Shown here: one piece after another, positions 7,435 to 39,974 of the stretch
Numbering within the stretch: position 1 is the stretch's first letter
Layout: each line of letters starts with the position of its first letter
Assembly: GCA_009380095.1 (NCBI GenBank)
Contig: WHSL01000024.1
Coordinates: 1 to 42,196 of the forward strand
Source of the DNA: Streptosporangiales bacterium
GTDB lineage: Bacteria; Actinomycetota; Actinomycetes; Streptosporangiales; Streptosporangiaceae
Reading direction: 5' to 3'
DNA: 42,196 nt
Notes under the pieces: model-generated
What the model was told of the DNA's origin: nothing
Database searches by the model: none
Seen by the model: the letters and a program-made list of their open reading frames with translations, nothing else
Position numbers and translations under genes: made by a program

Positions 7435-8163
7435 CTAGGGGGTGCGGCGGGTGTAGCGCAGGAACAGCGCGTCGTCGTCCTCGATCAGGTGGCCGATGCG
7501 CATCGGCAGCGTGTCCGGGATGCTCGGCCCGCTGAGCACCCGTGACGCGCCGCCCGCCACCAGCAACGGGCTGACCGTCAGGCACAGCTCGTCGAGCAGG
7601 CCGGCCGCGGCGACCTGGGCCAGCACCCGCGGGCCGCCCTCGCACAGGATGCGCTCGTGGCCGCGGCGGACGAGCTCGGCCACCGCGTCCTTCATGTCCA
7701 CCCGGTCGGTGCCGGCGACCACGAGGTCGGCGTTGTCCGCGGCGGTGGCGAGCCGGTCCGCGGGCGCCGACGCGGTGGTGATCACGATGGTCCGGGCGTC
7801 GTCCGGCGCCTCGGTGAAGAGCGGGCCGGTCAGGTCGAGGTCCAGGCGGCGGGTGAGGACGGCGAGCGGCGGGGTCCGGGTGCGGCCGGCGCGGAGGTGC
7901 TCCCACACCTCGCGGGGGCGCACCGGGCGGTAGCCCTCCGCCCGTACGGTGCTCGCGCCGACCAGGATGACGTCGGAGAGGCCACGCAGCAGCGCGAGGA
8001 GGCGGCGGTCCGCGGCGGAGGAGAGGCCCTGCGTCACCCCCTTCACCGCGGAGGCGCCGTCGGCGCTGGCCACCATGTTGGCCCGCACGTACGGGCCGCC
8101 GGGGTAGGCGTAGGCGGCCACGAGGTCCACATCGTCCGCGAAGTCCGGCAGCAGTCGTCGCAC
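7435..8163 (-). CDS. RibD C-terminal-type pyrimidine reductase family protein
   Basis: The 242-residue protein matches the dihydrofolate-reductase-like fold of the RibD reductase domain. That domain reduces the ribosyl side chain of the riboflavin precursor with NADPH. Typical pieces are PYVRANMVASADGASAVKG near residue 24, VILVGASTVRAEGY near 66, and ILCEGGPRVLAQVAAAGLLDE near 174. No deaminase domain is present, so it is a stand-alone reductase. Many actinobacterial members have no proven substrate, and no riboflavin gene is nearby. It converges with ligC; the 52 bp between them hold nothing obvious. Upstream lies the palindromic repeat element at 8232. Confidence 0.85.
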   Translation of the reverse strand: MRRLLPDFADDVDLVAAYAYPGGPYVRANMVASADGASAVKGVTQGLSSAADRRLLALLRGLSDVILVGASTVRAEGYRPVRPREVWEHLRAGRTRTPPLAVLTRRLDLDLTGPLFTEAPDDARTIVITTASAPADRLATAADNADLVVAGTDRVDMKDAVAELVRRGHERILCEGGPRVLAQVAAAGLLDELCLTVSPLLVAGGASRVLSGPSIPDTLPMRIGHLIEDDDALFLRYTRRTP

Positions 8164-8231: not shown

Positions 8232-8283
8232 CCCAAGATCAACAAATTGGGGAAAATCCTTCCCCCAATTTGTTGATCTTGGG
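8232..8283. repeat. Palindromic repeat element, short copy
   Basis: Two perfectly complementary 21-base arms (8232-8252 and 8263-8283) surround a 10-base loop AAAATCCTTC. The outer sequence CCCAAGATCAACAAATT and the right-hand AAAATCCTTCCCCCAA recur in the longer element at 39887-39974. It begins one base past the stop of the gene on its right (minus strand). Besides being a repeat it could act as a strong transcription terminator. Confidence 0.85.
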
Positions 8284-8284
8284 A

Positions 8285-9466
8285 TCAGAAGGGGGGTTCG
8301 AGGAGGGCGAAGGTGTCGGAGGCGGGGTGGGCGGGGAGGTCGACGCGGCGGACCTTCCAGTCCCGGGCGCCGCGCGTCCAGATCGCCGCGGCCTCGCCGA
8401 CCTGGGGGAACGAGCCCACCATGACGAGCCGGTTGTCCACCGTCCAGGCGGCGGAGGTGGCCTTGAGGTGCACGGCGAGCGGCATCCGCGGGGTGCGGAT
8501 CCAGCGCGGGTCCACGGTGTCGAGCACCCAGAGGTCGAGTCGCTGCACGTGCTCCCCGCCGGGGACCGGCACCTCCTGGGGCGCGGCGAACTCGGCGAAG
8601 ACGTACCTGTCGCCGTAGTCGGGGACGAGCTCGCCGGGCGCCTCCAGGGCGCTCGGCCAGTGCCACTCGATCATGCCGCCGCGCAGCAGCACCCGGCGGC
8701 CGAACATGTCGAACTGCACCCACGCGTTGTCCGCGTACGCGACCGGGCCGCGCAGCTCCGCCCGGGACGTGCCGTCGTGGTCCAGCAGCATCGCGTCGCT
8801 CGCGCCGTCGGACGGGCCGTCCAGCACGAGGCCGCGTTCGGTGTCCCGGACCAGCCGGATGCCGCAGTCCAGGGTGGCGAGCTCGTGCCGGTCGGGTTCG
8901 CCGCCGTGCACGGTGATCCGGTCGAGGCGGCAGCGGTCGCGTGCGCCGTCGCGGATCACCCAGACGGAGCGGCCGTCCCGGTCCGGCACGGCGGAGCGGC
9001 CGGTGCCGATCCGGCGGGCCTCGTGGTCGGCCCCTCCGACCAGGTAGAGCTCGGCGTCGGGGGAGCAGTCGTCGCAGGGCCGGTCGCTGGAGACGATCGC
9101 CTCGTTCGGGCCGAGCGACGTGACGCTGTTGATCCGGTCGCCGTCACTGGGGATCCCGCGTACGGGGTGCCGCGTCCCGACGTCCAGGTCGATGACCACC
9201 GGCGGGTCGGCCGGTATGAGGACGCGCAGGCCAGTCGGGCCGGCGGCGGGAGCCCCCGCGAGGGTCCGTACGGGCCCGGCCACGGGGGTGACGGCGCCGC
9301 TCGGGGTCGCGGTCGGGGTGGCGGGTAACGGGCCCGGCCCGCCGCCGTCGCCGAGCGAGGCGAACACCAGGCCGGCCGCCACCGCCGTGCCGAGCAGCGC
9401 GAGCACCACCTTGCCGGCACGGCCGAGCGGACGGCGCGGAGGCGATGCCAGGACGTCCTCCGGCAT
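8285..9466 (-). CDS. Membrane-anchored beta-propeller-like protein, unknown
   Basis: The 393-residue product is not a recognised enzyme. It has a short cytoplasmic start, one hydrophobic helix (residues about 20-42, AGKVVLALLGTAVAAGLVFA) and a Pro/Thr/Gly-rich linker. A long extracellular part follows, with repeated beta-type blocks such as DGRSVWVIRDG, RRVLLRGGMIEWHW and NRLVMVGSFPQ, as in TolB/WD40-like propellers. Four cysteines (CDDC, CRLD, DCGI) may form disulphides. The start ATG at 9466 is preceded by GAGGAGA; longer upstream reading frames lack this. It follows glgX by 23 bp on the same strand and is probably co-transcribed, but no functional link is evident. Confidence 0.75.
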   Translation of the reverse strand: MPEDVLASPPRRPLGRAGKVVLALLGTAVAAGLVFASLGDGGGPGPLPATPTATPSGAVTPVAGPVRTLAGAPAAGPTGLRVLIPADPPVVIDLDVGTRHPVRGIPSDGDRINSVTSLGPNEAIVSSDRPCDDCSPDAELYLVGGADHEARRIGTGRSAVPDRDGRSVWVIRDGARDRCRLDRITVHGGEPDRHELATLDCGIRLVRDTERGLVLDGPSDGASDAMLLDHDGTSRAELRGPVAYADNAWVQFDMFGRRVLLRGGMIEWHWPSALEAPGELVPDYGDRYVFAEFAAPQEVPVPGGEHVQRLDLWVLDTVDPRWIRTPRMPLAVHLKATSAAWTVDNRLVMVGSFPQVGEAAAIWTRGARDWKVRRVDLPAHPASDTFALLEPPF

Positions 9467-24657: not shown

Positions 24658-24863
24658 GGCGGCGTCGTGCGCTGAGACAGGCGCCGCTTCGCCGTACCGG
24701 TACGGCACCGAGACTGACCCCCCGGTGTCGTGGATACGTTCCCGTCGGCCGCCGGACGGCCATATCCATCAGTCACATCCCCGGGGCCTCACCCTTCGGC
24801 GGCGTACGCCGCCCGGCGGACCCTGCCCGAACGCGGGCGGCCGCCTCCCCCTGTGCCCCCGGG

Positions 24864-24985
24864 ACGCCTAATCCGCGAACGGCCGGCTCGCGGAACCGGG
24901 GACCCGATTCCTCATTGGGGTGAGTCGGCCATCGTGCCGTAGGGCGACTTCCACGCCCGAACCCGTCAGCTAACCCGGTCGGCGT
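24864..24985 (+). ncRNA. Cyclic di-AMP (ydaO-type) riboswitch
   Basis: The outer stem is formed by ACGCC (24864-24868) and GGCGT (24981-24985). Inside, the ydaO/yuaA hallmarks occur in order: AATCCGCG, GGAACCGGGGACCC, GGGGTGAGTC, GTAGGGCGAC and, most telling, CCGAACCCGTCAGCTAACC. This class binds c-di-AMP and in actinobacteria often precedes cell-wall hydrolase genes of the NlpC/P60 and Rpf type; ligand binding usually turns expression off. It ends 20 bp before the start codon, so the switch could hide the ribosome-binding site GAAAGGTG. Confidence 0.9.
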
Positions 24986-25005
24986 GCGTGGAAGAAAGGT
25001 GCATC

Positions 25006-25899
25006 TTGTCGCTTTCCCCGGAGAACGAACTCCCCGAATCGTCCAAGGGCACGCGTGCCAAGGGCGGCCGTCACCGCAAGCTCAGCGCGATGGCCGCCGC
25101 CCGGGCCCAGGCCGCACGTGCCATGACCACCGTCCGTAGGCCCGCGGTGTACCGGATGGCCGCGGGCACGCTGGCCACGGCCGGGCTGGTGGCCCTGCCG
25201 CTGGCGACCGGCGCCGGAGCCGACACCTCCGGCGTACGGCTCAGCGCCGCCGCCACCAAGTCCTTCGTGGGCTCCACCCAGGGCGTCCGGCTCGACGGCG
25301 CGACCGGCGCCGACAACGCCCTGACCGACGCCTTCCAGCAGGTCAAGAACAAGGCCAGGGAGGCGCGGGCGGAAGAGGCGCGGACGCGCGCGAAGGCGCA
25401 GGCGCAGTCGCTGGCGCAGACGCGCGCGCAGCAGAAGCTGGCCGCCGAACGGCTGGCCAAGCGCGAGGCCGAGATCGAGAAGCAGCGCGAGGCGTCCCGC
25501 GCGCGGGCGCACGAGCGCAAGCTGGAGCAGCGCAAGGCGAAGATCGGCAAGGTCCTCGACTTCGTCCACGACCAGTTCGACGAGCCCTACGTCTGGGGCG
25601 GCATCGGGCCGAACGGCTGGGACTGCTCGGGCATCACGATGAAGGCCTACGCCAAGGTCGGCGTGAAGACCGGGCGCACCACCTGGGACCAGAAGGACAT
25701 GTTCGCCGAGCGGAAGGTCGCCTGGGGCGACCTCAAGCCCGGTGACCTCGTATTCTTCAGCAACGACGAGCACATGGGGATCGTGTCGCGGAAGGGCTAC
25801 ATGTATCACGCCCCCCGTTCCGGCGACGTCGTCCGCGAGGAGAGGCTCGGCGCCAAGAGGCACTCGATGTTCACCGGGGCGGTCCGCCCGATCGCCTGA
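25006..25899 (+). CDS. Secreted NlpC/P60 cell-wall peptidase
   Basis: The 297-residue protein is a peptidoglycan endopeptidase of the RipA-like kind. It has a long basic start, a signal or anchor helix near residues 50-68 (MAAGTLATAGLVALPLATGA), a coiled-coil rich in Ala/Arg/Glu/Gln (about 105-180) and a C-terminal NlpC/P60 domain. The triad is Cys207 in WDCSGITMKAY, His256 in EHMGIVS and His268 in YHAPRSG. The start chosen is TTG at 25006 with GAAAGGTG at good spacing. GTG at 24988 is in frame, but it would lie two bases after the riboswitch with no site. Its control by c-di-AMP links wall turnover to osmotic or wall-stress signalling. Confidence 0.9.
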   Translation: MSLSPENELPESSKGTRAKGGRHRKLSAMAAARAQAARAMTTVRRPAVYRMAAGTLATAGLVALPLATGAGADTSGVRLSAAATKSFVGSTQGVRLDGATGADNALTDAFQQVKNKAREARAEEARTRAKAQAQSLAQTRAQQKLAAERLAKREAEIEKQREASRARAHERKLEQRKAKIGKVLDFVHDQFDEPYVWGGIGPNGWDCSGITMKAYAKVGVKTGRTTWDQKDMFAERKVAWGDLKPGDLVFFSNDEHMGIVSRKGYMYHAPRSGDVVREERLGAKRHSMFTGAVRPIA

Positions 25900-34844: not shown

Positions 34845-34878
34845 GCTTACACCCATAATTTACCCATTTGTCATCCAT
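34845..34878. other. AT-rich patch upstream of the unknown two-gene cassette
   Basis: This stretch (from CTTACACCCATAATTTACCC on) is mostly A/T, with the partial direct repeat TTACACCCAT and TTTACCCAT, in a region otherwise above 70% GC. It may hold the promoter (CATAAT) or bind a nucleoid protein such as Lsr2. It also marks a composition break. Confidence 0.5.
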
Positions 34879-38473: not shown

Positions 38474-39886
38474 ATGCGTCATCGGATGCGGGCCCTGGCC
38501 GCCGTCGTCGCCGCGGCCGGTCTGGCGTGCGGTGCGGCCGCCCCGGCGTACGCGGGGCCGGCGCCCGCCGCGGCTCGGGCCCAGGCCGACATCCTGGACC
38601 GGCTGCGCGCGCTGCCGGACGTGATATCGGTCGAGGAGCGCTCCGCGCCGGAGGGGTACCGGTACTTCGTCGTGGCCTTCCGGCAGCGGGTGGACCACCG
38701 CGACCCCTCGGCCGGCACCTTCACCCAGCGCTATACGGTGCTGCACCGCGACGACGACCGGCCGACCGTGCTGCACACCAGCGGCTACAACGTGTCGCTG
38801 TCCGGCTCGCGGTCCGAGCCCACCCGGCTCGTCGACGGCAACCAGATCTCCACCGAGCAGCGCTTCTTCACCCCGTCGCGCCCCGACCCGGCCGACTGGA
38901 CCGACCTGGACATCTGGCAGGCCGCCACCGACCACCACCGGATCCTCGCCGGGCTGAAGACGGTCTACTCCGGCAAGTGGATCTCCACCGGCGCCTCCAA
39001 GGGCGGCATGACCTCGATCTACCACCGCCGCTTCTACCCGCGCGACGTGGACGGGACCGTCGCCTACGTCGCGCCCAACGACGTGATCGACTCCGAGGAC
39101 CGGGCGGACATCCGGTTCTTCGACACGGTCGGCACCGATCGGGCGTGCCGGGCGGACCTCAAGGCCCTGCAGGTCGAGGCGCTGAAGCGGCGCGGCGAGA
39201 TCGTGGACCGGTACGAGGCGTGGGCCGCGGAGAACGGCCGTACGTTCGAGAACACGATCGGCAGCGCGGACCGCGCGTACGAGATGCTCGTGCTGGACAC
39301 GCCGTGGGCGTTCTGGCAGTACCAGACCCAGGCCAAGTGCGCGGACGTGCCGAAGCCCGACGCCTCCACGGATATGTTCTGGGCGTTCCTCGACGAGGTG
39401 TCCGGATTCGACTTCTACACCGACGAGGGCACGGAGCCGTACATCCCGTACTACTACCAGGCGGGCACGCAGCTCGGAGCGCCCAGCGTGCCCACCCGGC
39501 ACCTGCGCGGCCGGCTCCGGTATCGCGACCTCTACCAGCCGCGTTCGTACGTGCCGCGGGACATCCCGATGCGGTTCGACCACCGCGCCATGCCGGACGT
39601 GGACCACTGGGTCCGGACCCGCGGCAGCGAGCTGCTGTTCGTGTACGGCGCGAACGACCCGTGGGGCGCGGAGCCGTTCCGGCTCGGCCGGGGCACCCGT
39701 GACTCGCTCTGGTACACCGTCACCGGCGGCAACCACGGCGCGAACATCGCCCAGCTCCCCGAGGCCCAGCGCGCGAACGCCACCACAGCGCTGCGCCGCT
39801 GGGCCGGCGTCCCCTCGGTCGCCCGCCTCTCCGAGCCCAAGCTCATCCCCGGCTTCGACGAAACCCTGAAGCGCCACCCCCTCTAA
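38474..39886 (+). CDS. Secreted S28-family-like serine aminopeptidase
   Basis: The 470-residue protein begins with a signal peptide (MRHRMRALAAVVAAAGLACG and a likely AYA cleavage site near residue 27). The mature enzyme shows Ser175 in GASKGG, Asp395 in GANDPWG and His421 in GGNHGAN as the catalytic triad, with the family blocks FRQRVDHRDPSAGTFTQRY and YSGKWISTGASKGG. Related Streptomyces enzymes release tripeptides or Pro-containing peptides from protein N-termini. The ATG follows TTGGAGGAC. The stop codon is followed at once by a palindromic repeat element. The gene is probably for extracellular peptide nutrition. Confidence 0.9.
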   Translation: MRHRMRALAAVVAAAGLACGAAAPAYAGPAPAAARAQADILDRLRALPDVISVEERSAPEGYRYFVVAFRQRVDHRDPSAGTFTQRYTVLHRDDDRPTVLHTSGYNVSLSGSRSEPTRLVDGNQISTEQRFFTPSRPDPADWTDLDIWQAATDHHRILAGLKTVYSGKWISTGASKGGMTSIYHRRFYPRDVDGTVAYVAPNDVIDSEDRADIRFFDTVGTDRACRADLKALQVEALKRRGEIVDRYEAWAAENGRTFENTIGSADRAYEMLVLDTPWAFWQYQTQAKCADVPKPDASTDMFWAFLDEVSGFDFYTDEGTEPYIPYYYQAGTQLGAPSVPTRHLRGRLRYRDLYQPRSYVPRDIPMRFDHRAMPDVDHWVRTRGSELLFVYGANDPWGAEPFRLGRGTRDSLWYTVTGGNHGANIAQLPEAQRANATTALRRWAGVPSVARLSEPKLIPGFDETLKRHPL

Positions 39887-39974
39887 CCCAAGATCAACAA
39901 ATTCAGGGAAGGATTTTGCAGGAGAACCCGCAGGTCGGCCCTGCAAAATCCTTCCCCCAACTTGTCGATCTTGG
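39887..39974. repeat. Palindromic repeat element, long copy
   Basis: The element begins at the base after the TAA stop of the peptidase gene. Left arm: CCCAAGATCAACAAATT, then GGGAAGGATTTTGCAGG (39906-39922). Right arm: CCTGCAAAATCCTTCCC (39940-39956), then CAACTTGTCGATCTTGG. The inner 17 bp pair perfectly around a 17-base loop AGAACCCGCAGGTCGGC; the outer part has a few mismatches. It is related to the shorter copy at 8232-8283. As RNA it would be a strong hairpin and probably ends transcription. Confidence 0.85.

Follow-up and report, generated by a model that had tools for sequence, protein, structure and literature searches.

A lineage-restricted family of palindromic elements at gene ends in a Streptosporangiales genome

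A 52-bp perfect palindrome lies one base behind a stop codon in the 42,196-nt stretch of Streptosporangiales DNA analyzed here (the window), and a longer relative directly follows another stop codon some 30 kb away. The locus raises the question of whether such hairpins are ordinary terminators of their own genes or copies of an element that spreads, and of how the short form relates to the long one. The answer we favor, with a probability of roughly 0.6 for all its parts taken together, is a lineage-specific, nonautonomous REP/MITE-like palindrome of ~75–92 bp that spreads to gene ends, plays a terminator-like role there, shrinks by replication slippage and is kin to a larger unit encoding an EndoU nuclease.

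Results

The two window copies and their neighboring genes are as follows.

8232..8283, no strand: 52-bp palindromic element, read as a deleted form of the family (arms, loop, RNA fold)
8232..8252, no strand: left arm of the 52-bp element, CCCAAGATCAACAAATTGGGG
8253–8262: loop of the 52-bp element, 10 bases, AAAATCCTTC
8263..8283, no strand: right arm of the 52-bp element, CCCCAATTTGTTGATCTTGGG
8285..8287, minus strand: TGA stop of the gene ahead of the 52-bp element (gene 8285–9466, start uncertain)
7435..8163, minus strand: next gene in the same direction, starting ~70 bp past the 52-bp element
39887..39974, no strand: long 88-bp family copy (blastn E 1.9e-34; covariance model 103.6 bits)
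39884..39886, plus strand: TAA stop of gene 38486–39886, directly ahead of the long copy

The anatomy described in the first-pass annotation proved accurate throughout: the arms of the short element form 21 perfect pairs (8232–8252 with 8263–8283), its left end CCCAAGATCAACAAATT, claimed as an outer arm common to both copies, recurs identically at 39887, and its loop and right arm (AAAATCCTTCCCCCAATTTGTTGATCTTGG) match the long copy's inner right arm at 39945–39974 with 93% identity over 30 bases. The claimed spacing of 0–1 bases from a stop codon holds as well, with a single base (8284) separating the short copy from TCA at 8285–8287 (TGA on the minus strand) and 0 bp between the TAA at 39884–39886 and the start of the long copy at 39887. 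Predicted RNA folding energies are −39.3 kcal/mol for the 52-mer (z −8.8, equaled by 0 of 200 shuffles) and −47.7 kcal/mol for the 88-bp copy (z −8.9). Since the short element folds better than all 200 shuffles, and the 14-mer AAGATCRACAARTT has 43 exact matches in the genome against 0 for its reversed control, we do not consider the element a product of chance. A scan of the window with Rfam returned nothing except a c-di-AMP (ydaO/yuaA) riboswitch at 24855–24999 (84.7 bits), which lies away from the element and upstream of an open reading frame starting near 25089.

Genome-wide, the hairpin is present in ~75 copies within 6.09 Mb (413 contigs, 97% complete), of which ~50 are long copies recovered by blastn and a covariance model built from 16 copies. 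Allowing up to one mismatch, the 14-mer is found 63 times and its reversed control once; all 43 exact matches were kept, and seven one-mismatch matches with no further element sequence were left out as chance, most of them being inside genes and accounted for by KINK/KIDK codons. The earlier proposal of a dispersed family that settles at gene ends is thus borne out, as the ~75 copies include essentially none inside genes, and the element is neither confined to the two window loci nor equally common within coding sequence. Beyond this genome, the exact 15-mer AAGATCAACAAATTG is absent from 340 family relatives apart from one chance match inside a gene, the covariance model finds no match in 20 relatives, and the core pattern at one mismatch finds none in 395 other genomes of the phylum. 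The element is likewise absent from the GTDB, viral, plasmid and phage collections, in which very close genomes may be hidden, and within the collections searched the family is restricted to one lineage.

For the analysis of gene context, 75 fetched segments were merged (343 kb) and genes were called with a home-made codon-usage caller. Among the 75 elements placed, 36 lie between convergent genes, 32 between tandem genes and none between divergent genes, the remaining seven being at contig edges; the 68 copies with both flanking genes called are therefore all convergent or tandem, yet divergent gaps make up 28% of the noncoding DNA in these segments. The median distance from element to stop codon is 3 bp, with 70 of 74 copies falling within −40 to +20 bp, and in 13 cases the called gene terminates inside the element itself, for example at TTTG-TAG. 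The choice of stop codon is also skewed: TAA accounts for 24/89 element-adjacent stops vs 11/240 other gene ends (p 6e-8, about sixfold), and TAG is underrepresented next to elements. The TAA excess may stem from a preference for certain targets, from the expression level of the genes or from a base that the element itself contributes. Furthermore, the asymmetric loop runs with the upstream gene in 17 of the 21 tandem copies on which this comparison rests (p 0.007).

Two loci illustrate the placement. Behind glpK (C61), the GlpK C terminus ends at the same residue as in relatives (83–85% identity), the element begins a few bases beyond, and the relatives compared have no element after the stop, which shows that the stop codon is native and the element extra to it; the distance to these relatives precludes defining the empty site to the base. 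At a groEL-like locus (C60), a half copy directly follows a conventional G+C-rich hairpin, as judged by eye, an arrangement that in this single case fits insertion next to terminators.

The best-surviving alternative, which we nevertheless regard as doubtful, is that copies land at random and are lost wherever they disrupt a gene or promoter, leaving only those at 3′ ends, so that purifying selection without targeting would produce the pattern. A strong hairpin upstream of a start would be harmful, and element-free convergent gaps are short (median 19 bp), so any survivor in such a gap must be near two stops. Tandem gaps, however, would also accommodate copies on the 5′ side, and still 31 of 32 there are nearer the upstream stop than the downstream start, typically 0–20 bp from the stop (p 1.5e-8), and neither the TAA enrichment nor the bias in loop orientation is expected from simple survival. 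Spread to gene ends remains the reading we prefer.

Taken together, 45 long copies give a consensus close to CCCCCAAGATCAACAAATTGGGGGAAGGATTTTGTAGGAGAACCCGCAGGTCGCGCCTGCAAAATCCTTCCCCCAATTTGTTGATCTTGGGGG, in which the outer right end follows the best copies; the majority consensus has a predicted fold of −68 kcal/mol. The long form measures 75–92 bp with a 20–25 bp loop, and each long copy forms a strong hairpin. Conservation is mostly 90–99% in the arms and the loop core GCAGGT and drops to 40–60% at the lowest in other loop columns and the AAGATCAA ends. Mean pairwise identity in the core is 77% and subfamilies are visible, so the copies differ in age. Arm pairing is 88.0% within copies vs 86.6% across copies (sd 0.4) and compensatory changes among copies are few; the hairpin structure may be under selection, but the small pairing excess could also come from shared subfamily ancestry.

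The conserved loop core and arms, the strand bias of the loop, the weak excess of within-copy pairing and the location right after stops could all be accommodated by a selected protein- or RNA-level gene-end device, be it a terminator or an mRNA 3′ cap, that is copied by gene conversion. The flanks of the family copies are unrelated to one another, however, so gene conversion would lack homology from which to start; confinement to one genome would moreover be unusual for a needed function, and the paucity of compensatory changes also speaks against this explanation, which we judge unlikely compared with a mobile palindrome.

Two copies are themselves rearranged. One, a long copy (C364; L088:2369–2573), is split by another kind of insertion, ~140 bp in length, whose ends are CAGGGCGATTACAAGGTCGC / GCGACCTTGCAATCGCCCTG and which shows an apparent 8–9 bp duplication GGATTTTG(T); at the other (C403; L072:2610–2757), one element copy sits inside, or is fused to, another, giving a 148-bp tandem composite.

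Shorter forms relate to the long consensus through single deletions. The 28-nt form CCCCAAGATCAACAAATTGATCTTGGGG can be derived from the consensus by a single deletion whose ends lie in two TTG copies; for the 22-nt half form CCCCAAGATCAACAAATTGGGG, the ends lie in two TTGGGG copies. For the 52-nt window copy, the homology at the deletion ends is 0–2 bp: none if the consensus is the starting point, AA if it is a variant with four G. Once deleted, the 28- and 52-nt products still fold strongly and the 22-nt product weakly (z −1.8). Junctions between short direct repeats are what is expected from slippage across a palindrome; together with the arm match they make the proposed derivation of the 52-bp copy from a long one the simplest reading, and we infer a replication-slippage origin for the short forms.

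Two family arms were found alone (C369 and C93), and C93 together with the repeat beyond C403, C404 and C254, contigs that end at the same repeat, led to a larger unit. Its ~1.76-kb copy at C233:2497–4257 (L141) abuts a TAG stop on its left side and, on its right, the stop of a convergent gene, and is 82% identical over 1.6 kb to the copy at C93 from position 34862 (L140). Further copies run off contigs (at the C233 start, C298 and C133) or are interrupted (C17), and several contigs break inside units. The left arm of the units matches the small element over 20–26 bp (24/26 bases in C298; not equaled by any of 2000 shuffles). The right end differs from the small element and adjoins small copies. 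Within each of the two unit ends there recurs a motif, GTTGACCTGGGGTTTC, similar to the loop of the small element read on the opposite strand (CGACCTGSGGGTT). The unit encodes a bacterial EndoU nuclease domain (PF14436, E 3e-8) followed by a small open reading frame that could encode its immunity protein. No transposase was recognized in it, and the C-terminal fragment repeated next to C403/C404 had no match in Pfam. The unit is likely a larger relative of the small palindromes, and may be either their parent or a passenger that acquired their ends.

A separate feature of the C17 copy (L151; C17:301–2092) is its IS-like insert of ~1.8 kb, which has a 458-aa transposase-like frame and inverted ends around TAGTTAGGGCTTGCAGA. 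We also considered and rejected an IS whose terminal repeats would simply be the element: among all arm hits there is no +/− arm pair ~1–2 kb apart around a transposase, and the larger units found carry EndoU instead.

Discussion

Intrinsic (Rho-independent, including hairpin-only) terminators resemble the family in forming a strong hairpin a few bases past the stop; the family hairpin is nearly symmetric, which would make it usable from both sides, and differs from such terminators by its sequence homology across dozens of loci. The 52-bp copy is not a canonical intrinsic terminator, since it is followed by G-rich DNA, ATCAGAAGGGG on the plus strand or GCCAGGAG on the minus strand, instead of a U-tract, T-rich sequence following only the inner sub-stems, where it is arm sequence.

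MIRU of mycobacteria are likewise short repeats inserted at gene junctions involving stop codons, but they lie at stop/start overlaps and are not long hairpins. Integron attC sites have core sites RYYYAAC ... GTTRRRY and belong to a cassette array with an integrase; by eye, the consensus ends GATCAAC ... GTTGATC do not fit GTTRRRY, and the family copies are scattered singly. With MITEs, the family shares terminal inverted repeats, many copies, no coding capacity and internal reduction. A MITE has a larger element with the same ends; here the ~1.7-kb units share the left arm and have a different right end. Target-site duplication, a further MITE trait, was not detected at the element edges (2 of 45 copies vs 1.45 expected from shuffles, a weak test given the uncertain boundaries), and the near-exclusive position at stop codons sets the family apart.

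The family is also similar to REPs, that is, GTAG/CGTC palindromes with a RAYT (PMC3733652, PMC2817692, PMC8266576), in being dispersed, extragenic and downstream of open reading frames. REPs too are found between convergent or unidirectional genes and at times give a TAG stop (PMC3733652); the text of that paper does not mention Actinobacteria. The suggested RAYT link was not supported by the search: the Y1 HUH transposase (PF01797, Y1_Tnp) is absent from the genome, five control genomes being positive in the same search. The family ends in (CCC)AAGATC instead of the REP tag, conservation of a GTAG in the apical loop is poor (about 60% for the T and about 40% for the A), and the main form of 75–92 bp exceeds the 20–40 bp of a REP palindrome, with reduced forms of 22–28 bp. 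An ordinary REP family whose RAYT is missing from the fragmented assembly (413 contigs) or too divergent for PF01797 would share the downstream, stop-supplying habit, but it is very improbable in view of a 97% complete genome without Y1_Tnp, the lack of a conserved GTAG or CGTC end tag, and a long form of ~90 bp with a 20–25 bp loop. The family behaves like a REP or MITE, yet we do not file it as a REP; no such actinobacterial family is described in the open papers searched.

We return to a nonautonomous palindrome, probably mobile, whose copies come to rest at gene ends and probably serve there as bidirectional terminators or 3′-end hairpins. Mobility is suggested by the copy number, the lineage restriction and the subfamilies, and a terminator function is plausible. 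In the mechanism we propose, a hairpin-using recombinase or transposase would spread copies with no target duplication and with a strand preference, landing at gene ends or at terminator hairpins already in place; no candidate transposase or recombinase for the family came to light. Once transcribed, the hairpin could serve from either side as a terminator or 3′-end stabilizer, which would favor its retention, and the palindrome would shrink through replication slippage between short direct repeats (TTG, TTGGGG, 0–2 bp). The ~1.7-kb EndoU unit would be either the source of the small palindromes or a passenger with captured ends. A selfish-looking repeat thus seems to have been turned into a kit of ready-made gene-end markers.

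More tentatively, the palindrome may be aimed at stop codons as such (TAA-rich, strand-oriented, with no target duplication) by undescribed machinery, its larger form ferrying an EndoU cassette, its miniatures handing out bidirectional terminators, and unrelated families of like habit existing in other actinobacteria; as a whole, this extended scenario is possible rather than probable. The family is a clear example of repeat copies that all but touch stop codons, in a genome of high GC content, a setting in which terminators are little understood, and it makes testable the ideas of mobile hairpins as a genome-wide terminator supply, of an enzyme targeting gene ends and of stepwise decay of long palindromes.

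Two relatives carry a different hairpin behind glpK, and 94 stretches matched it when GTDB genomes were scanned; most of the 80 listed come from a single Acidothermales bacterium MAG (JAFMQP contigs, L154–L233). There, a high-copy hairpin, CCTGGTTGATCATGTTCTCATGATCAACCAGG then GCTTCACACGACCTGCAGG..., stands at gene 3′ ends. Homology with the family studied here was tested and is not significant (166 of 2000 shuffles as good), and we therefore treat the Acidothermales family as an analogue, to all appearances independent and with the same gene-end habit, which suggests that this habit recurs in actinobacteria. Its 66 sites comprise 19 between convergent genes, 36 between tandem genes, none between divergent genes, one inside a gene and 10 at edges.
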